64,000 bases of DNA from a virus: the IMG/VR virus record IMGVR_UViG_3300032307_000370, positions 62,001 to 126,000 of that record. The stretch is one strand, 5' to 3'. The notes under the pieces are model-generated. The model was not told the origin of the DNA. It saw only the letters and a program-made list of their open reading frames with translations, and did not search any database. Every line of letters starts with the position of its first letter. The first letter of the stretch is position 1. Shown here piece by piece: positions 3,107 to 53,760 of this stretch. Made by a program: the position numbers and the translations under genes.

Positions 3107-5539
3107 ATGATGTCACTTAAAATACTTAAAAGAGATGGGGATAATGTATCATTTAACCCACAAAAAATTTATAATCGTGTAAAACGAGCAGCAAAAGGTT
3201 TGAATGTCAATTCGGACGAGATTTTTATTAAGGTTATTACCTCAGTTCCAACTGAGGGTGAAATAACAACAAAAGAATTAGATAAACTTGTGTATGAAAT
3301 TGCGGCTTCATATACTGGTAGTCATCACGATTACTCAAGATTAGCATCATCAGTTGCTATTTCATCATACCATAAAGAAACTAACCCTAGTTTTTCTGAA
3401 ACTATGATGATACTTTATAGTGATGGTATTATACACGATAAATTAATTGAAACCATTAAAGAATATGGTGAAGATACAATTGATGCTGTAATTAATCACG
3501 ATAATGATTATAATTTTGATTACTTTGCTTGGAGATCATTACAAGAAATGTATCTATTAAAAAGACCTAATGGGGTTACGATAGAGAGACCACAACATAT
3601 GTATATGAGAATTGCATTGTGGGTTACCGAAAGTTTTGTTGAAGCGGTTGAATATTATAAATCATTATCAAACCAACTAATTTCTAAAGCAACACCAATT
3701 ATGATCAATTCAGGTACAAAAGTACCTCAATTGGCGTCTTGTGTTTTGCATTATAACAATTCAGATTCAAGAAAAGGATTGTTAGATACATTAACTGATA
3801 TTTCAACATTCTCGTCAGACGCTGCGGGTATTGGATTATCAATGTCAAATATTAGAAGTAAGGAAAGTAGAATTTCAAGTTCAGGTGGATATGCTGGTGG
3901 TTTATTAAAGTATCTTAAAATTGTAAATGAATCATTACGTTTCTTTAATCAACAAGGACGTAGACCTGGATCTGCGGCGATTTATCTTGAGCCTTGGCAT
4001 AAAGATATTATTGATCTATTAGATATTAAAAAGAATACAGGTGCGGAGGAATTAAGGGCACGTGATTTATTTACCGCTCTTTGGTTACCTGATAATTTCA
4101 TGAAAGCGGTAAAAAATAATACAGATTGGTATTTGTTCTGTCCTAATGATATTATTAGTGCTGGATTGAAACCATTACAAGAATGTTATGGTGAAGAATA
4201 TGAAGAAGTTTATAATAAAGCCGTAGAAATGGGGTTAGGTAAAAAAGTTTCGGCTCAAACAATATGGACTAAGATTATTGAATCTCAGGTAGAAACAGGA
4301 GTTCCTTATTTGTGTTCTAAAGATAGTGCAAATAGAAAAACAAACCATCAGAATATTGGGGTTATTAAACAATCAAACCTTTGTAATGAGATTTATCAGT
4401 ACACCGATGAAGAAACAACCGCAATCTGTACTCTATCATCTATTGTATTGAAAAACTTTGTTAAAAATAATAAATTTGACTTCCAATTGTTATTTGAGGA
4501 AGTTAGAAAAGTTGTTAGAACTTTAAATAAAGTTGTTGATATTAATAACTACTCAACACAAAAAGGATTGAAAGGTGGTTTAGAACAACGAGCAATCGCA
4601 ATTGGCACACAAGGATTAGCGGATGTGTTCTATTTACTTGACATGATCTTTACTGACGAGGAGGCAAAAACTCTAAATAAACAAATCTTTGAGACAATTT
4701 ATTATGGGGCGATTTACGAAAGTAATGACTTATGTAAAAAAGAAAAATACAAACCATACAAATTCTTCAAAGGATCTCCAATGTCAAAAGGTATTTTCCA
4801 ATATGATATGTGGGGATTAACTGAAAATGATTTATCCGGATATTGGGATTGGAATAAATTAAAGAATGACGTTTCAGAATACGGAGTATGTAATTCTTTA
4901 TTTACGGCACAAATGCCGGTAGCATCTTCAGCTAAGATTACTGGTTCATTTGAAATGACAGAACCGGCTCACTCGGCATTATTTAATAGAAGAGTTGTTG
5001 GTGGTGAAATTATGATTGTTAACAAATATTTGATTGCTGACTTTGAGAAAATTGGTATTTGGTCTGAAGATTTAAAGAATGAAATTATAATGAATGAGGG
5101 ATCAATTCAAAACATAAACTTTAACAATTATTTAGATCCTGAGGATAAAAATTACAATAAGAAAGTAAAAAGAATCGAACACTTAATTCCTAAATACAAA
5201 ACAATTTGGGAGATTTCACAGAAAGAATTAATTAATATGGCGGCAGACAGAGCACCATTTATTGATCAATCACAATCAATGAATATCTATATGTCTAACC
5301 CAACATTATCAAAGATTACCTCATCACATTTCCATTCATGGGAAAAAGGATTGAAAACTTTATGTTATTATGTTAGAACTAAAGCAATTTCAACAGGGGC
5401 AAAACACTTAGCGTTAGATTTAAGTAAACGAGAAAAACCGAAGGTAACACCTGAACCACCAAAGGTTGATTTTTCAAATATGAATTTACCACCAAAACCT
5501 GATAGTTCAGAGTTTGAGTGTTTTGGATGTTCATCGTAA
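3107..5539 (+). CDS. nrdA: Ribonucleoside-diphosphate reductase alpha subunit (class Ia)
   Basis: Catalytic subunit that reduces ribonucleoside diphosphates. An N-terminal ATP-cone (about residues 1-95) suggests dATP feedback control. The active-site set is intact: C212 (QLASCVL), N424-x-C426-x-E428 (NLCNE) and C441. The C-terminal tail ends ECFGCSS, with C805 and C808 placed to receive electrons from thioredoxin or glutaredoxin; both are encoded at 57259-57874. The gene opens with two ATG codons; either could be used. An intrinsic terminator follows within 25 bases. Confidence 0.96.
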   Translation: MMSLKILKRDGDNVSFNPQKIYNRVKRAAKGLNVNSDEIFIKVITSVPTEGEITTKELDKLVYEIAASYTGSHHDYSRLASSVAISSYHKETNPSFSETMMILYSDGIIHDKLIETIKEYGEDTIDAVINHDNDYNFDYFAWRSLQEMYLLKRPNGVTIERPQHMYMRIALWVTESFVEAVEYYKSLSNQLISKATPIMINSGTKVPQLASCVLHYNNSDSRKGLLDTLTDISTFSSDAAGIGLSMSNIRSKESRISSSGGYAGGLLKYLKIVNESLRFFNQQGRRPGSAAIYLEPWHKDIIDLLDIKKNTGAEELRARDLFTALWLPDNFMKAVKNNTDWYLFCPNDIISAGLKPLQECYGEEYEEVYNKAVEMGLGKKVSAQTIWTKIIESQVETGVPYLCSKDSANRKTNHQNIGVIKQSNLCNEIYQYTDEETTAICTLSSIVLKNFVKNNKFDFQLLFEEVRKVVRTLNKVVDINNYSTQKGLKGGLEQRAIAIGTQGLADVFYLLDMIFTDEEAKTLNKQIFETIYYGAIYESNDLCKKEKYKPYKFFKGSPMSKGIFQYDMWGLTENDLSGYWDWNKLKNDVSEYGVCNSLFTAQMPVASSAKITGSFEMTEPAHSALFNRRVVGGEIMIVNKYLIADFEKIGIWSEDLKNEIIMNEGSIQNINFNNYLDPEDKNYNKKVKRIEHLIPKYKTIWEISQKELINMAADRAPFIDQSQSMNIYMSNPTLSKITSSHFHSWEKGLKTLCYYVRTKAISTGAKHLALDLSKREKPKVTPEPPKVDFSNMNLPPKPDSSEFECFGCSS

Positions 5540-5561
5540 GATGGATCGCGTATCATCAAAG

Positions 5562-5590
5562 AAATCCCGGAGTAATTCGGGATTTTTTAT
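5562..5590 (+). terminator. Intrinsic terminator after nrdA
   Basis: Inverted repeat AAATCCCG / CGGGATTT with an 8-base loop, running into TTTTTT. It ends the helicase-nrdB-nrdA unit and separates it from the tail block. Confidence 0.85.
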
Positions 5591-5599
5591 TTTGTAATG

Positions 5600-5607
5600 T
5601 ATTTATT
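5600..5607 (+). promoter_or_regulatory. Candidate TATTTATT motif before the tail block
   Basis: Lies between the nrdA terminator and the gp25-like ATG at 5638, 30 bases upstream of it. A second copy at 5626-5633 is only 4 bases from the ATG and is less likely to matter. This is a weaker member of the TATTTATA family. Confidence 0.3.
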
Positions 5608-5637
5608 CAAAAATTATTGAGAGTATATTTATTGAAT

Positions 5638-6096
5638 ATGGCAAATGGAATAACATATGGTATAAATTTCCCGTTTAGAGATTCGTTCGTTGGTAGATAT
5701 TTAGATACTTCTAACGATAGTGATGAGGAAATAAGAAGTAATCTTGTACACTTATTATTAAGTAAAAAAGGGACAAGATATTTTTTACCCGATTTTGGAT
5801 CAAGATTATATGAATATATCTTTGAACCGTTAGATGGTCCAACATTTAGTGAGATAGAAAGTGAAATAAGGGATTCGGTTGCTAAATATATGCCGGGAAT
5901 CTTAATTACTAGTATTAAGATTACTGACGCATCAATGGGGGAAGAAAATCAAGGTACTTATATAAACCAATATGGTGAGAAAGAATTTACGGTTCCAAAC
6001 ATTGCTCAATTAGAACACACGGCAAAAGTAAGAATTGATTATAGAAACACTAATAACGCTTTCAATTCAAGCGATTTTGTAATTATCAATATTTAA
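5638..6096 (+). CDS. Baseplate wedge protein, T4 gp25 / GPW family
   Basis: Small baseplate protein of 152 residues. In contractile tails gp25 forms part of the inner wedge and helps start sheath assembly. The family signature region is visible: a run of small hydrophobic turns, then LLSKKGTRYFLPDFGSRL, a glycine/Asp motif typical of gp25-type proteins, followed by an E-x-E helix (SEIESEIRDS). The start is the ATG at 5638; the frame is open 40 codons further upstream, but that extension runs through the nrdA end and the terminator. It is followed 6 bases later by the gp6-like gene, the same order as in T4-like wedge clusters. Confidence 0.85.
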   Translation: MANGITYGINFPFRDSFVGRYLDTSNDSDEEIRSNLVHLLLSKKGTRYFLPDFGSRLYEYIFEPLDGPTFSEIESEIRDSVAKYMPGILITSIKITDASMGEENQGTYINQYGEKEFTVPNIAQLEHTAKVRIDYRNTNNAFNSSDFVIINI

Positions 6097-36674: not shown

Positions 36675-39047
36675 ATGGATTTGTTTAATCCCCCAAAATT
36701 ATTTAATTACAATATAATGATAAAAGATTTAGATTTCTCTACGTTTGAAAATCCATCAATACAAGTTGTGTGGGAAGACGTACCTGAGAACTTCACACAA
36801 GACAAGATTAAGAGTGTTAAACATTACTTCCAAAAGAAGTATAACACGACTAATGTCAATGTATTAACGAAAGTTAAAAACGTTGAGAAAGACACAATGC
36901 AAAGTATTGATGTATCTGTTAACGTTGCGGATGTTAATTACCAACTTGACTTGTTGAAAAAATTCTTAGAATCAAAAGGGTATAACGATTACTTGGATGA
37001 TGTATTGAGAATTAATACGATGGTTGAGAATAAAATGACCGAGGAAGAAGTTGAGACAACTCAATTTAAGAAATGGTATATCAGAAATATTGAATTTTCT
37101 AATTTTTTATCTTATGGTGAGAACCAAAGATTGGATTTTGATAAATGCAACGGAGTTGTAGTTGTAGAATCAAATCCACCAAACTTTGGGGGAAAAACAG
37201 TTCTTACTGTGGATTTGTTAATGTTCTTATTTTTTAATGAAACAACAAAAACAACCAAGGCAGAAGAAATCTTCAACCGATTTACTGACAAAAACAAAGT
37301 AACGGTTAAAGGTGAGATCACAATTGATGGGGAAGAATACATTATTGTTAGAAACATTGAACGAAAACTTTCTAAGAAAGGTGAGTGGAATGTTAAAACA
37401 GAGTTGGACTTCTTCAAGAAATTAGCTGACGGGAGTTTACAAAACTTCACAGGAGAACAAAGAAGGGAAACTGAGGCGTTCATTAAGAATTCCATCGGTA
37501 CAAAGGAAGATTTCCTTATGACCATTTTAACTACGGCAACAAACCTTGAAGAATTGTTGGAATCAAAACCAACGGCAAGAGGTCAAGTGTTGTCTCGTTT
37601 TATGGGGCTTGAGTTTTTAAAACGGAAAGAGGAAGTTGCGAAAGAGGTGTATTCGGAATTTAATAAATCAAAATTATCTAACATTTATAATTCTGAAATG
37701 TTAAAAACGGATAACGAATCTTACAATACTCAAATCGTTGAATTAAATGATCAAATTGGTGTATTAAAAACAGAGATTGACGATGTTGATGAGAAAATCC
37801 TAAAAGGGAAAGAATATCGTGATGATATGTTAAAGAAAAAACATGGAGATATTGACCATGAAATCAGTTTGATGAACCCGACTAAAACTCAAGAGGAAAT
37901 TGACTCTTTGGAACAAGAAAAAACAGGGTTTCAAAAGAAAGCAGAAGAACTTAAAGTTATTGAACCAAAAGAGTTTTATCACGAAGACCAACATGATAAA
38001 ATTAAGGAGGATTATAACGATACTTTTAAGTTGAAAATTGAGCTTGATACACAGATCAATGAAATTGAGAAATTGAAGAGTTCTGTGAGTGATGGTATCA
38101 AATGTGAACACTGTGGAATTGAGTTAATGAACGCTTCAATAACCCAACAAAAAATCAGTCAACTTGCCGACTTTATCCGTCAAAGAGACGAAAAAAAAGG
38201 GTTAATGGCGGATTTAACCAACAAAGAACAAGCTTTTGTACAACTTAAAAAAGATTTTGATGAGTATGAGAAAAACAAACTTATCAAAGAGAAGTATGAA
38301 TTAAGTATTGAAAGTTGTGACCTTAAGATTAGTACTTTAAAGGGTAAATTGGAAAGTTGGGGTAAAGTTCAGGACAAGATCAAAGAGAACACTAAGATTG
38401 ACGAAATGTTAATCAAAGCGGATGTAAGATTAGATGAACTTGAAAACATCAAAAAAACCAAAAACTCTCAAATTTCTAATAACGAATATCAAATTAAATC
38501 GTTGAATGAGAAGATTGAGAACAACAAAGGATTGATTGAAAAAATCAAATCTGAAGAAAGTAGAGAAAAAATCTACAAAATTTATTTGGAGGCGTATGGT
38601 AAAAACGGATTATCAAAAATCATTATGAGGACAATGATGCCGTTAATTAACTCCGAACTCCAAAGATTGATGGAAGACAGTTGTTATTTCAAATTAGAGA
38701 TTAGAATTAATGATAAAAACGAGGTTGAGTTCCTAATGGTTGATAATAGCACTGGTATTGAAAAATTAATGGTATCAGGATCGGGATATGAGAGAACAAT
38801 CGCATCATTAGCGTTAAGATCAGTCCTTAGTAAGATCTGTACTTTACCGAAACCAAACATCGTGGTTTTTGATGAGGTATTCGGTAAAATATCAAACGAC
38901 AATCTTGAAATGGTATCTGAGTTTTTCCAAAAAATTAAAGAATACTTTGGTAAAGTGTTCCTTATCAGTCACAATCCAATGATTAGTCAGTGGGGGGATA
39001 CGATCGTTAAAATTACAAAAGAAAACAATGTATCAAGAGTATTGTAA
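36675..39047 (+). CDS. Recombination endonuclease ATPase, SbcC / Rad50 / T4 gp46-like
   Basis: SMC-type ATPase that would work with the SbcD-type nuclease. The ABC head starts at about residue 135 (YIRNIEFSNFLSYGE), with the P-loop region NPPNFGGKTVL (K174, T175), a long coiled coil with zinc hook C477-E-H-C480, and the C-terminal signature and Walker B (IVVFDEVFGKI), then LISHNP. Odd points: the first glycine of the P-loop is replaced (N-P-P-N-F-G-G-K-T), and about 130 residues precede the ABC fold where bacterial SbcC begins almost at once. The conserved C-terminal parts suggest it is functional. Confidence 0.9.
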   Translation: MDLFNPPKLFNYNIMIKDLDFSTFENPSIQVVWEDVPENFTQDKIKSVKHYFQKKYNTTNVNVLTKVKNVEKDTMQSIDVSVNVADVNYQLDLLKKFLESKGYNDYLDDVLRINTMVENKMTEEEVETTQFKKWYIRNIEFSNFLSYGENQRLDFDKCNGVVVVESNPPNFGGKTVLTVDLLMFLFFNETTKTTKAEEIFNRFTDKNKVTVKGEITIDGEEYIIVRNIERKLSKKGEWNVKTELDFFKKLADGSLQNFTGEQRRETEAFIKNSIGTKEDFLMTILTTATNLEELLESKPTARGQVLSRFMGLEFLKRKEEVAKEVYSEFNKSKLSNIYNSEMLKTDNESYNTQIVELNDQIGVLKTEIDDVDEKILKGKEYRDDMLKKKHGDIDHEISLMNPTKTQEEIDSLEQEKTGFQKKAEELKVIEPKEFYHEDQHDKIKEDYNDTFKLKIELDTQINEIEKLKSSVSDGIKCEHCGIELMNASITQQKISQLADFIRQRDEKKGLMADLTNKEQAFVQLKKDFDEYEKNKLIKEKYELSIESCDLKISTLKGKLESWGKVQDKIKENTKIDEMLIKADVRLDELENIKKTKNSQISNNEYQIKSLNEKIENNKGLIEKIKSEESREKIYKIYLEAYGKNGLSKIIMRTMMPLINSELQRLMEDSCYFKLEIRINDKNEVEFLMVDNSTGIEKLMVSGSGYERTIASLALRSVLSKICTLPKPNIVVFDEVFGKISNDNLEMVSEFFQKIKEYFGKVFLISHNPMISQWGDTIVKITKENNVSRVL

Positions 39048-39059
39048 AATACTTTACTA

Positions 39060-39102
39060 TAAGAAATAAATTCTTACTATAATGGTTAAGAAATAAATTC
39101 TT
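39060..39102 (+). repeat. Direct repeat pair upstream of the restriction-modification gene
   Basis: TAAGAAATAAATTCTT occurs at 39060-39075 and 39087-39102, 27 bases apart. TTACTATA also recurs at 39054 and 39074. They lie between the SbcC stop and the next gene and could be operator sites or an insertion scar. Confidence 0.7.
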
Positions 39103-39107
39103 TATTA

Positions 39108-39115
39108 TATTTATA
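39108..39115 (+). promoter_or_regulatory. TATTTATA motif before the restriction-modification gene
   Basis: Exact motif on the coding strand, ending 3 bases before the ATG at 39119, directly downstream of the direct repeats. The short distance would give a leaderless message or means that transcription starts elsewhere. Confidence 0.38.
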
Positions 39116-39118
39116 ATT

Positions 39119-41473
39119 ATGAAAAAGAAAAGAATAAACGAAAGTAATTTACAAAATCAAGTTTGGTTACATTTTTATACCCAAGTTGAAAAAATTGGAA
39201 CTATAGATTCTCAAAAAACGGATAATGATAGAATCCATAATCTACTTAATGGTGCGTCAAAAACAGGAGGTAATGGATTGGGTAGACCTGAACACATTAT
39301 AACAATTAATAAATATTTAAATTTAGTTTTGATTACCGAATTAAAAGGTGATACATCATTACATGGGGATGATAAAGATGATTTAAATAAAGTTAAATAT
39401 GCGATTGATGGAGTTAAACATTATTCAAATGCTCTTTCTAAAGAATTTGATGTAATATCAATTGCTATTAGTGGTGATAGTATTGAAAATTCTAAAATAA
39501 CTCATTTTTATCAACCAAAAAAAAGTGCGCAACCTATAAAAATACTTGGTAATAAACTTTTAGACATTGAATCATATATTGAATTTTACACAAAAAATGA
39601 GGTGGTAATATCTCAAGATTATGAAAAATTACGAAACTACGCTAATGAATTAAATTTGATGTTACATTCAAATAAAATATTGGAAAGTCAGAGAAGTCTT
39701 TTATTAAGTGCTATTTTAATGGGGTTGGATGTTGATGATTTTAAAGAAACTTATCAATTTATTAGTGATCCATCAAAATTATCTAAATTTTTACATTCTA
39801 ATGTATGTGATTACATAAAAAAAGAAAGTGGGTTATCAAATGATAAAATAGATTTTGTTAATTCACAATTTAATTTTATTCTTAATGATGTTAGTTTGTG
39901 TACTAAACAAAATGTTTTAAAAAATATAATTTTAAATATAGATAAAAACATTAAAAGTTTTGTTGATACCTACAAATATAGGGATGTTTTGGGTGAGATT
40001 TATAATGTATTTTTAAGTTATTCAAATTCAGATAAAGGGCTTGGAATTGTATTAACACCACCACACATTACTGAATTTGTTTGTGAATTAACACAAGTAA
40101 ATTCAAAAAGTATAGTATTAGATAATTGTACAGGAACAAGTGGGTTCCTCATTTCCTCAATGAAATATATGGTTGAAGATTGTAAAGGTGATGAGCAGAA
40201 AATTAAATACGTGAAAGAAAATCAATTAGTAGGTGTTGAATACCAATCGCACATTTACGCTTTGGCGGTTTGTAATTTTATAATCCATAAATCATTTCCT
40301 AAAAATATTTTAAGTGGTTCTTGTTTTGATGAAAAAATAATTGATGAGGTTAGAGAAAAAAAACCAAACATTGGATTTTTAAATCCCCCTTATAAATCTG
40401 ATAAAAAAAATGATATAGAAGAATTAGAATTTGTGTTAAACAATCTAAATAATTTACAAATTGGTGGAAAATGCGTTGCTTTATTACCGATGTCTTGTGC
40501 GGTGAGAGGAGATAAAAAAATACAATTTTTAAAAGAAAAAATTTTGGAATCCCACACTTTAGAAGGGGTTTTATCTATGCCTGATGAGCTTTTTTACAAC
40601 TCTAACGCTGGGGTAGTTTCATGTTTAATGATATTCACTTCAAACATACCTCATAATTTTGAAAAAGAAGTGTTTTTTGGTTATTATAAAGACGATGGAT
40701 TTGTAAAACGAAAAAATTTAGGAAGAGTAGATTATTTTAATAGATGGGGAAAAATAAAAAATAATTGGATTAATAATTTTTTAAATAAAAAAGAAGAAAA
40801 AGGAGTTTCAGTAAAAAAATGTATAACTAAAAATAGTGAATGGTCAGTTGAAAAATATTTAGTTACTGATTATGAAAGTTACACTAAAGATTTTTTTGAA
40901 AATGAATTACATGACTATTCAGCATATCTATTCAAAAGTAAAATATTAAATGGTGTTACCTCGGAAAAACTTTTAGAAGATGATATATCACTTTTTGAAA
41001 AAAGATGGGAACTTTATAAACTTACTGATATTTTTACTATTACGGGGACTAAAACTACTAAACCGGATTTAATAAAAGATTTTGAATTTGGACCTTATCC
41101 TTATGTGACAACTCAGGCTAGTAATAACGGTGTTGAAAAGTTTACTAATTATTTTACCGAATTAGGTGGTGTATTAACTATTGATAGTGCGGTTTTGGGT
41201 TATACTTCCTATCAGAAAGATAATTTTTTGGCATCAGATCACGTTGAAAAATTAACACCAAAATTTGATTTTAATATTTTCAGTATGTTTTTTTTAAAAA
41301 CAATATTGAATTATGAACAATATAGGTTTAATTACGGTAGAAAAGCCAGTCAAACTAGGTTGAAAGAATTAAATATTTTTTTACCAACAAATGATCGTGG
41401 TGAGATTGATGTAGAATTTATGGAAAATTTTATAAAAACTTGCAACTACTCATTTAATCTAAAAAATATCTAA
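39119..41473 (+). CDS. Single-chain restriction-modification enzyme (type IIG-like): nuclease, N6-adenine methylase and recognition domain
   Basis: Three parts are visible in 784 residues. Residues 1-130: a PD-(D/E)XK-like nuclease, with RPEH (57-58) and ITELKGD (E74, K76). Residues about 290-560: an HsdM-like gamma-class methylase, with LTPPHITEF (motif X), LDNCTGTSGFLIS (motif I, 334-346) and LNPPY (motif IV, 421-425). Residues about 640-780: an HsdS-like recognition domain (KRWELYKLTDIF, then GGVLTIDSAVLGY). Such fused enzymes cut and methylate without partners. The gene stands alone between recombination and sigma-factor genes, with repeats on both sides, suggesting a moron acquired as a unit. 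It could restrict competing phages or the host, or act only as a methylase. Confidence 0.82.
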   Translation: MKKKRINESNLQNQVWLHFYTQVEKIGTIDSQKTDNDRIHNLLNGASKTGGNGLGRPEHIITINKYLNLVLITELKGDTSLHGDDKDDLNKVKYAIDGVKHYSNALSKEFDVISIAISGDSIENSKITHFYQPKKSAQPIKILGNKLLDIESYIEFYTKNEVVISQDYEKLRNYANELNLMLHSNKILESQRSLLLSAILMGLDVDDFKETYQFISDPSKLSKFLHSNVCDYIKKESGLSNDKIDFVNSQFNFILNDVSLCTKQNVLKNIILNIDKNIKSFVDTYKYRDVLGEIYNVFLSYSNSDKGLGIVLTPPHITEFVCELTQVNSKSIVLDNCTGTSGFLISSMKYMVEDCKGDEQKIKYVKENQLVGVEYQSHIYALAVCNFIIHKSFPKNILSGSCFDEKIIDEVREKKPNIGFLNPPYKSDKKNDIEELEFVLNNLNNLQIGGKCVALLPMSCAVRGDKKIQFLKEKILESHTLEGVLSMPDELFYNSNAGVVSCLMIFTSNIPHNFEKEVFFGYYKDDGFVKRKNLGRVDYFNRWGKIKNNWINNFLNKKEEKGVSVKKCITKNSEWSVEKYLVTDYESYTKDFFENELHDYSAYLFKSKILNGVTSEKLLEDDISLFEKRWELYKLTDIFTITGTKTTKPDLIKDFEFGPYPYVTTQASNNGVEKFTNYFTELGGVLTIDSAVLGYTSYQKDNFLASDHVEKLTPKFDFNIFSMFFLKTILNYEQYRFNYGRKASQTRLKELNIFLPTNDRGEIDVEFMENFIKTCNYSFNLKNI

Positions 41474-41527
41474 AAAATAGTATAATTACCTAAAAAAATT
41501 AGTACATATACCCAAAAAATTAGTACA
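41472..41527 (+). repeat. Three phased A-tract repeats (about 21 bp) downstream of the R-M gene
   Basis: Two perfect copies of AAAAAATTAGTACA (41493-41506 and 41514-41527) and a degenerate one (AAAAAATAGTATA from 41472) are spaced 21-22 bases, about two helical turns. They end 18 bases before a TATCTTTG element. The arrangement is that of operator iterons for a dimeric regulator acting on the 41577 promoter. Confidence 0.75.
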
Positions 41528-41544
41528 AGTTCTATTTTTTTGGT

Positions 41545-41552
41545 TATCTTTG
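41545..41552 (+). promoter_or_regulatory. TATCTTTG, Bacteroidetes-type -7 element
   Basis: Exact TAnnTTTG match, 25 bases before the ATG at 41577, just downstream of the phased repeats. No clear TTG at -33. Probable start of the unit that contains the sigma factor gene. Confidence 0.55.
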
Positions 41553-41576
41553 TTGAAATAATTAAAACATAAAAAT

Positions 41577-42065
41577 ATGAAGTATTTACTCTTTGCTTAT
41601 TATTCGGAAGGTGAAAAAACCGAAGAAGAAATTCACAAAATTGCGGAAGAATTGGCACCTATTGTTGATTCGGATGAAATAAAATATGTATATGGTCCAT
41701 CACACGTAGTATTTAATTTTATTACCGAAATGTCTTTAGAGGAATTGTCAATATATGTTGATATCGTCATTGAAGAGACAGGACCATTTAAGTATATTTT
41801 AATCCCAACCCCAAAACAAATTGCGTCAAACATGGATCCTGAACATTTAGAACATCTTATGCAAGTTAGAGGTGATAATGATGAGGGGGAAATATCGCCA
41901 AATTTCATAGAATTTCTAAAAGAAAGTTTTGCGGGAACAAACCCAAATGTTTGTTCTTTAACAATAGATGAGATCTTAGAAAAAATTAAACAAACTGGAG
42001 TTGGATCACTCTCCACACAAGAAAAAGAAAAATTAGATAATTATTCACAATCAATCCAAAATTAA
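41577..42065 (+). CDS. Hypothetical protein upstream of sigma, 162 aa
   Basis: The N-terminal about 100 residues form an alpha/beta domain (YLLFAYYSEGEKTEEE, VVFNFITEMSLEEL). The C-terminus IDEILEKIKQTGVGSLSTQEKEKL matches the pattern DEILDKIxxxGxxSLTxEEKxxL found at the C-termini of Bacteroidetes rhomboid-type proteins (DUF6576). Only 3 bases separate it from the sigma factor, so the two are co-expressed, and it could be a regulator or partner of sigma. That role is inference from position. Confidence 0.72.
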   Translation: MKYLLFAYYSEGEKTEEEIHKIAEELAPIVDSDEIKYVYGPSHVVFNFITEMSLEELSIYVDIVIEETGPFKYILIPTPKQIASNMDPEHLEHLMQVRGDNDEGEISPNFIEFLKESFAGTNPNVCSLTIDEILEKIKQTGVGSLSTQEKEKLDNYSQSIQN

Positions 42066-42068
42066 TTA

Positions 42069-42869
42069 ATGAAGGACAAAAACTTAGGAATACCCATTAA
42101 CCAAGACGAAGTTTACCACTACCTTAAAGACATCAGAAAAATTAAAGTAATGACTCCCGACAGAGAGCGTGAGTTAGCGGTTAAAATGAAATCAAACGAG
42201 ATTTCAGAAAGAGAGAGAAAACAAATTGAGGAAGAACTTCTTACGGGTAACCTAAGATTTGTTATTACTGTTGCTAAACAGTATCAAAATCAAGGATTAG
42301 ATCTACAAGATCTAATTGCCGAAGGAAATTACGGACTAATGAAGGCAATCAAGAATTTTGATTGGGGAAAAGACCTTAGATTTATATCATATGCGGTATG
42401 GTGGGTCAAACAATCAATCATCCAATCCTTAAATGATAATGCTAGAACAATACGATTACCGGTAAATGTTGTTCAGGACCTTCATAGAGCTAAGAAAGAA
42501 TTAGAACAATCCGGTAAGAAGTTAGAAGATAAGTTTTCCACTTTACCATCAATTATTGATTTAGATATGAGAATCAATGAAGAAGGGGATACCCTTATTG
42601 ATATGATTGCTAATCAAGATGCGGATGCTCCTGATGCCTCATTTCACACTAAAGACATTTTAAAAGAAAAGATGATGACTTTGTTGGATGTCTTGGATGA
42701 TCGAGAAAAATCAATCATCGGTGATTACTTTGGTTTGACAGGAACACCAAGAACTTTAGAAGACATCGGATCTGATTTTGGTTTAACAAAAGAACGAGTA
42801 CGACAAATAAAAGAAAAAGCGTTGAGACGATTACGAAATGATAGTTCTGAATTATTTGATTATTTGTAA
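42069..42869 (+). CDS. RNA polymerase sigma factor, sigma-70 / RpoD-like
   Basis: Regions 1.2 to 4 are all present in 266 residues: a region 1.2 helix (DEVYHYLKDIRKI, TPDRERELA), region 2 (NLRFVITVAKQYQNQGLDLQDLIAEGN, then FISYAVWWVKQSI), region 3 (LPVNVVQDLHRAKKELE) and a region 4 helix-turn-helix (RTLEDIGSDFGLTKERVRQIKEKALRRLR). It resembles the short RpoD of Bacteroidetes more than T4 gp55, which lacks several of these regions. It would redirect host RNA polymerase to phage promoters; the TATTTATA motif is a candidate target. A terminator follows. Confidence 0.93.
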   Translation: MKDKNLGIPINQDEVYHYLKDIRKIKVMTPDRERELAVKMKSNEISERERKQIEEELLTGNLRFVITVAKQYQNQGLDLQDLIAEGNYGLMKAIKNFDWGKDLRFISYAVWWVKQSIIQSLNDNARTIRLPVNVVQDLHRAKKELEQSGKKLEDKFSTLPSIIDLDMRINEEGDTLIDMIANQDADAPDASFHTKDILKEKMMTLLDVLDDREKSIIGDYFGLTGTPRTLEDIGSDFGLTKERVRQIKEKALRRLRNDSSELFDYL

Positions 42870-52920: not shown

Positions 52921-53760
52921 ATGCTATCATACATTGGAGGTAAAAGTAAAATCGGGAAATGGATCGTTCCTTTCTACGATAAAAATATGGAAACATATGT
53001 TGAAACATTTGGGGGGATGTTTTGGTGTTTCTTTAATATGGATCTTAAACAGTTCCCTAATTTAAAAAGAGTTGTATATAACGACTTCAACCCATTAAAT
53101 TATAATTTATTTAAATGCATTCAAAACCCTGAACGTTTATTAGTTGAAATAAATAATATACCGTGTCAACAAAAGGGTGAAGAAATTACGGATCCGATAT
53201 ATAAACAACAATTTGAATTATTCCAATCGGAAATCTTTGGTAAAGATTTTATTGTGGGAGATACTGATTATGTTGTTGCTGCTAAATATGTTTATATTCT
53301 AACACAAGTATTTAGTGGGTCTAAACCTGAAACATCAAATTTTATTGATTTAAAAGGTAAATACAAATCAAAATATCTTACTTTTAGAGATAAGTTATCA
53401 AAACCTGAATGGATTGAACATTTTCTTAAAATAACAGAAGTTGAGAATATGGACTTTGAAGATGTGATAAATAAATATGACTCACCAACAACTTATTTTT
53501 ATGTTGATCCACCATATTGGAAAACTGAGAACTATTATTCCAACCATGATTTTGATAGAGAAGATCACGAGAGATTGGCGAACACTCTTAAAGGTATGAA
53601 AGGTAAATTTTCACTATCTTATTATAATTTTGATATTTTATGCGAATGGTTTCCAAAAAATGATTATCTTTGGCAAACAAAAGAATTTGCGAAAGCAGCT
53701 TCGGCAAAAAAAGGTGAAAAACAAAATATGGGTGAGGAATTACTTATAATGAATTATTAA
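52921..53760 (+). CDS. DNA adenine-N6 methylase, Dam / D12 class
   Basis: Orphan methylase of 279 residues. YIGGKSKIGKWI (4-15) and ETFGGMFWCFF (28-38) form the AdoMet-binding motifs, and YVDPPYW (DPPY 196-199) is the catalytic motif. The order motif X-I-IV is that of the alpha (Dam/D12) class. It probably methylates adenines to protect phage DNA or mark it for a phage process. No cognate restriction gene is adjacent; the R-M enzyme at 39119 has its own methylase domain. A variant of the TATTTATA motif (TATTTTTATA) lies upstream. Confidence 0.88.
   Translation: MLSYIGGKSKIGKWIVPFYDKNMETYVETFGGMFWCFFNMDLKQFPNLKRVVYNDFNPLNYNLFKCIQNPERLLVEINNIPCQQKGEEITDPIYKQQFELFQSEIFGKDFIVGDTDYVVAAKYVYILTQVFSGSKPETSNFIDLKGKYKSKYLTFRDKLSKPEWIEHFLKITEVENMDFEDVINKYDSPTTYFYVDPPYWKTENYYSNHDFDREDHERLANTLKGMKGKFSLSYYNFDILCEWFPKNDYLWQTKEFAKAASAKKGEKQNMGEELLIMNY

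Follow-up and report, generated by a model that had tools for sequence, protein, structure and literature searches.

We analysed a 64,000-nucleotide stretch of viral DNA, hereafter the window, which comprises bases 62001-126000 of the 127,725-base IMG/VR virus record IMGVR_UViG_3300032307_000370. Between a recombination gene of the sbcC type and a pair of genes coding for a DUF6576 protein and a σ factor, it carries a single gene whose product is, by sequence and structure prediction, an intact all-in-one type IIG restriction-modification (R-M) enzyme. It is probable that this gene occupies a cassette-exchange slot in a group of large phages, themselves probably virulent and infecting Bacteroidota, and that the R-M cargo of this slot marks the DNA of the phage and cleaves unmarked DNA.

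A Type IIG Enzyme Encoded by a Single Gene

The open reading frame (ORF) starts with ATG, contains no internal stop codons and has the coordinates (Table 1) and the length of 784 residues that were given in an initial annotation of this DNA made from its letters alone. The translated product matched the PADLOC type IIG model PDLC03608 over residues 29-604 (6.6e-117), as well as two Pfam families, N6_Mtase over residues 288-580 (3.9e-26) and Methylase_S over residues 628-774 (4.1e-16), which bears out the HsdM-like N6-adenine methylase and the HsdS-like recognition domain that had been read from the sequence. The gene is the only one with a PF02384 match in the entire record.

The N-terminal 160 residues taken alone gave no library hits and retrieved no PDB nuclease by sequence; the motif was therefore tested on relatives. 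While a search of viral contigs with the single protein sequence returned no relatives, an alignment query recovered them, and 14-16 proteins from Bacteroidota, Omnitrophota, Gracilibacteria (genetic code 25) and other viral contigs were aligned. A GxP(D/E)-x15-ExK stretch is retained across these proteins, with P57, E74 and K76 being near-invariant and position 58 being either D or E. Judged by sequence and model, the PD-(D/E)XK active site (P57-E/D58 with E74-x-K76) is intact. In the methylase part, D335-x-C337...G339 and N422-P-P-Y425 are invariant among the aligned relatives, and motifs I and IV are likewise intact. Two peculiarities of homologues were noted: a Bacteroidales homologue (L009:4914-7370) has an in-frame stop codon directly past the nuclease motif, and the Gracilibacteria homologues (L007 and L008) are open only if TGA is read as glycine.

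An AlphaFold model built on a 14-sequence alignment had a mean predicted local distance difference test score (pLDDT) of 86.5. In this model, the nuclease residues lie on two strands (59-63 and 66-76) within an alpha/beta core that also includes helix 95-106 and strand 111-119, in the same order as in PD-(D/E)XK nucleases. Modelling of residues 1-130 as a nuclease, failure of which was one of the outcomes that the initial annotation had named as counting against it, did not fail, and a nuclease-like core was predicted. A Foldseek search of the PDB with the model retrieved type I methylases, the type IIG enzyme BpuSI (2.8e-15) and the type IIB enzyme BsaXI (1.2e-14). The proposed type IIG/BcgI-related label is thus one on which profile hidden Markov model (HMM) searches, motifs, structure prediction and fold searches agree, and the nuclease, methylase and recognition domains all reside on one polypeptide.

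The ratio of nonsynonymous to synonymous substitution rates (dN/dS), calculated against the closest slot homologue, L017, with dS near saturation, was ca. 0.28 in the nuclease part, compared with 0.16 in the methylase. Elsewhere in the slot, it was 0.05 for methylase c1 and 0.04-0.19 for nuclease partners. These ratios show that both predicted activities, nuclease and methylase, are under purifying selection.

The Slot between sbcC and the DUF6576-σ Pair

Relatives of the window sbcC and σ proteins were fetched and the intervening DNA was inspected. Some 150 loci yielded 75 distinct slots, and grouping at 95% sbcC identity gave 58 species-level groups. The DUF6576 gene is located immediately 5′ of the σ gene in all 75 distinct slots, with a gap of 5-35 nt, and orf80 is separated from sbcC by 6-200 nt. 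The sbcC-DUF6576 interval measures 8-4014 nt and either is short or houses one to four genes; it is empty in 21 groups and filled in 37. A methylase is present in 32 filled groups (in 30 as judged by HMM and in two, with c10, by motif in sequence only), while the remaining five contain c7, c24, c33, c17 or TnpB. Insertions are positioned exactly between sbcC and the DUF6576-σ pair, and sister phages carry other cargo at this point. The earlier statement that the enzyme sits alone is true of this genome, but the site it occupies is a cargo slot in related phages.

Exchange of cargo is evident among close relatives. In the nearest relatives of the window phage (98% protein identity in σ and 94% in sbcC), the slot is filled by an HNH-like gene (L033-L035) or by a different restriction endonuclease/methylase pair (L116), so that the window phage and its two nearest relatives have three different fillings. 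Homology of these relatives to the window breaks off at 39043 or 39067 and restarts at 41492 or 41472. More generally, phages with 96-99% identical sbcC have differing fillings or an empty slot, with sharp edges. L038 carries a full two-gene insert and L039, with 99% identical flanks, has an empty slot, while L171 presents a third filling; L190/L062, L116/L033 and L076/L081 are further pairs of close relatives that differ in their fillings. A promoter-bearing stretch, for example ATTTTATTCGTATATTTGT, is found at both edges of several fillings (among them L038, L171, L053 and L190), and edge repeats were significant at p <= 0.01 relative to simple shuffles in 9 of 46 filled slots. This suggests, but does not prove, that exchange proceeds via recombination in shared flanking DNA.

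Genes That Fill the Slot

One filling (L044, 11611-13391) consists of a homologue of EcoRI (PF02963, 5.1e-123; PDB EcoRI, 5.7e-108) located beside a homologue of M.EcoRI (1.8e-145). The EcoRI homologue retains the catalytic IKPDGG...EAK as well as the AGNAIER and LNRLDRLT segments. The phage that bears it has one GAATTC site compared with 3.6 expected, with low numbers in EcoRI-free sister phages as well. In L081, an IceA (NlaIII-type) nuclease gene (5440-6039; 2.5e-36) is flanked by a methylase on either side. The slot is most commonly filled by c1, a methylase of the PF01555 type (27 genes), accompanied by any one of some ten unrelated partner genes; a number of these partners match type II restriction endonucleases or PDDEXK_11. 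Other slot methylases are of the D12, M.TaqI/Eco57I-like and further types, each with a partner of its own. The type IIG group of the window enzyme is also found in the slot of L016-L022, including a split version, R-M plus S, in L021. In 25 sister records, the PF02384 methylases are located in the slot, the exceptions being a single one in G006 and a hit below the threshold.

Other cargo was also observed. In a 317-kb phage, the type IIG gene shares the slot with an adjoining gene for a pyrimidine dimer DNA glycosylase (L017:9432-9902), and TnpB/IS605 OrfB (L069:12403-13578) is the sole slot gene in another phage. By eye, the 809-residue c10 protein (L068/L072; L072:7560-9986), with its CEFKKDF and NPPY stretches, resembles a further fusion of nuclease and methylase; searches of Pfam, PADLOC, NCBIfam and PDB sequences gave no informative match for it. 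In L090 (12373-12861), L138 (8854-9408), L086 (c7) and L051 (12398-13015), the slot contains one small gene and no methylase. Since c7 elsewhere pairs with a methylase, such genes may be solitary nucleases or remnants.

Possible Functions of the Slot Cargo

We infer enzymatic activity, together with a target site, a timing and a target DNA, along the following lines. Whole R-M systems are most likely gained, lost and swapped at the slot within the lineage. The methylase part of the window enzyme would mark an adenine of the phage DNA, with the single recognition domain picking the site, and the nuclease part would cut mark-free DNA, be it the host chromosome, unmarked co-infecting phages or mobile elements. 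With one recognition domain serving both marking and cutting, the single gene would be a self-consistent cassette, and its replacement would change both activities at once, because they share this domain. Either host DNA, as believed for chloroviruses, or rival phages could be the target. We also lean, by a small degree only, towards a more general proposal, namely that a lineage of virulent jumbo phages keeps a dedicated slot to exchange unrelated complete R-M systems (EcoRI, NlaIII-like, type IIG and others) as weapons against rivals and/or host DNA, with the epigenetic identity of the phage changing faster than the remainder of its genome.

Several points weigh against this interpretation. 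The contigs are metagenomic and mostly incomplete; the near saturation of dS affects the comparison of the window gene with L017; and the host and the virulent lifestyle are inferences. For c2, the commonest nuclease partner, a structure model (pLDDT 75) had no significant fold match, and a profile search of the PDB returned no matches. Many other partner genes (c7, c8, c9, c14, c24, c33, c34 and others) lack a recognisable family, and the presence of a complete R-M system is therefore proven by homology for some fillings only.

A serious alternative, compatible with the interpretation above though on balance unlikely, is that the fillings are selfish: the nuclease would cut a co-infecting phage whose slot is empty or different, and the cassette would be copied in through recombination in the flanks common to both phages, as homing endonucleases do. 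Swapping at a single locus between near-identical flanks, the direct repeats with promoters that border several fillings on both sides, the location next to a recombination gene and the occurrence of HNH-like, IceA and GIY-YIG-like nucleases and of TnpB among the cargo are all in line with such behaviour. However, the methylases carried by most filled groups are not a homing trait, significant flanking repeats occur in only a small share of the filled slots (9 of 46), and cutting at the empty site is a supposition.

It is less probable still that methylation is the only function, with the mark shielding the phage against restriction by host enzymes that have the same specificity and the nuclease being a tolerated passenger. 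Phages often carry orphan methylases, and two such genes are conserved outside the slot in this lineage; moreover, five filled groups are methylase-free and empty slots are frequent. Yet pure anti-restriction predicts loss of the nuclease, and the nuclease motif of the window enzyme is retained, as is the catalytic motif of the EcoRI homologue, and methylases are still accompanied by nuclease partners that have genes of their own. A mark-only role is disfavoured because the nuclease part, the nuclease partners and the methylases are all under purifying selection. Finally, an assembly artefact or bacterial contamination, in which host fragments with R-M genes would have been wrongly joined to the phage contigs, is very improbable: although every contig is metagenomic and the closest cellular relatives of the enzyme are bacterial, dozens of independent assemblies have phage genes bounding the cargo on both sides at the same place, with exact edges, and separate phages have an enzyme of this one group in the slot.

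Under the interpretation that we prefer, in which R-M cargo marks the phage and cuts unmarked DNA, R-M systems, a textbook bacterial defence against phages, appear to have a standing swap site in large phages, and the examples that look catalytically complete by sequence include a relative of EcoRI. Viral use of restriction enzymes becomes testable, since specificities are predictable and sister phages that are nearly identical, some having cargo and some having none, can serve as natural controls. The slot is also a source of unexplored nucleases, with several partner families having no known relatives.

Junctions and Neighbouring Genes

Features of the window enzyme and of its surroundings are listed in Table 1.

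Table 1. Features of the type IIG gene, the slot and adjacent genes (positions in the window).
Feature	Position	Strand	Basis
sbcC/gp46-like recombination ATPase, left boundary gene	36675-39047	+	phrog_77 SbcC-like, 7.3e-40; adjoins slot in ~150 loci
Left cargo junction, two TAAGAAATAAATTCTT copies	39048-39118	+	homology to L033-L035 stops at 39043, to L116 at 39067
Predicted type IIG restriction-modification enzyme, 784 residues	39119-41473	+	PDLC03608, 6.6e-117; Pfam N6_Mtase and Methylase_S; AlphaFold pLDDT 86.5
N-terminal PD-(D/E)XK nuclease domain (predicted), ~residues 1-160	39119-39598	+	motif conservation; predicted strands/helix; dN/dS 0.28 vs L017
P57-E58 of nuclease domain	39287-39292	+	
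E74-x-K76 of nuclease domain	39338-39346	+	
Gamma-class N6-adenine methylase domain, ~residues 266-580	39914-40858	+	Pfam; PDB relatives 2okc, M.EcoKI
Methylase motif I, D335-NCTGTSGF	40121-40147	+	
Methylase NPPY	40382-40393	+	
Single HsdS-type target recognition domain, residues 628-774	41000-41440	+	PF01420, 4.1e-16; identity to Sau42I S, 44% and 32%
Right junction: tandem AAAAAATTAGTACA repeats (41493-41527) and Bacteroidota-type -7 box TATCTTTG (41545-41552)	41474-41576	+	common to L033-L035 and L116
DUF6576 protein, right boundary gene	41577-42065	+	PF20216, 8.8e-11; in 75/75 distinct slots
Phage σ70-type factor	42069-42869	+	Sigma70_r2, Sigma70_r4, r1_2
Core orphan D12-class adenine methylase, outside slot	52921-53760	+	phrog_56; PF02086 in G000 and nearly all sister phages

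The initial annotation had mentioned repeats at both borders of the gene. Repeats do exist on both sides, but the two pairs are unrelated to each other and do not make up a flanking repeat. On the left, just 5′ of the type IIG gene, an identical near-palindromic pair of 16 nt (39060-39075 and 39087-39102) has no other copy in the window and is possibly a regulatory site. On the right is a 14-nt pair (41493-41506 and 41514-41527). Tandem repeats of the AAAAAATTAGTACA type, spaced ca. 21 nt apart upstream of the DUF6576-σ pair, are confined to the window and its closest relatives (L033-L035 and L116) and are possible binding sites. Since these relatives carry other cargo and have the right junction too, it belongs, by sequence comparison, to the phage backbone, which rules out the border repeats as cargo-flanking repeats.

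Outside the slot, a D12-class methylase gene is located 11-13 kb beyond it in almost all sister phages, and a further PF01555 methylase gene is located 20-30 kb beyond it in most of them; the two form a conserved orphan background.

Host and Lifestyle of the Lineage

A TAnnTTTG box is present 5′ of the DUF6576 gene in 70 of 74 slots (chance expectation, ca. 3 per 4257 intergenic bases), and a Shine-Dalgarno-like stretch precedes just 2 of 50 window genes. A TAnnTTTG-type box and rare Shine-Dalgarno sequences are established traits of Bacteroidota, and both observations fit hosts from this phylum. The largest related records are 274-317 kb long, a terminase is encoded in the six largest (290-317 kb) and a tyrosine integrase was found in none of 18 records; the lineage is therefore probably virulent. 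A megablast search with 20 kb against isolated phages gave no match. The lineage has no close isolate, with the best sbcC of an isolated phage being ca. 24% identical.

Comparison with Known Systems

BpuSI (3s1s) and BsaXI (8w2p) are fold neighbours of the window enzyme, but they are bacterial and only 12-13% identical to it, and BsaXI is a type IIB enzyme. Type I HsdM proteins (2okc and M.EcoKI) and HsdS share the methylase and recognition folds; however, HsdM has no nuclease, and the window enzyme has no separate HsdR or ATPase.

Among the closest known systems is Sau42I (X94423), which is carried by Staphylococcus phage phi42 and has been described as BcgI-like and phage-encoded (Dempsey 2005, as cited in PMC6536676 and PMC10053308). 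Its nuclease-methylase (A) subunit aligns with the window enzyme over the greater part of its sequence and has the same motifs, at 30-32% identity, and the single recognition domain of the window enzyme is 44% identical to the first recognition domain of Sau42I S and 32% identical to the second. Sau42I is made up of two genes, with a separate specificity subunit that has two recognition domains, and is borne by a temperate converting phage, whereas here there is one gene with one fused recognition domain, in a large phage lineage in which an integrase was not found. The predicted enzyme is thus a fused, one-recognition-domain variant within the BcgI/Sau42I group, and the gene taken alone is a fresh member of an already known phage-borne BcgI-like group.

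Complete R-M systems are also found in chloroviruses and marseilleviruses, both of which infect eukaryotes. According to the passages available, chloroviruses package R-M nucleases that are believed to degrade host DNA (PMC7019647), while the R-M nucleases of marseilleviruses do not degrade it (PMC7253447); exchange of unrelated R-M systems at a single slot is not described in those parts of the accounts. We found no published account of an R-M exchange slot in large phages in the open-licence literature searched. The immigration control region of Listeria (PMC10059834) resembles the slot in that diverse R-M systems occur at one locus, but it is a defence locus of a bacterial chromosome and not of a virus. 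Within the literature searched, what is new in our observations is the site, a single locus at which large phages have time and again exchanged R-M systems of unrelated types.
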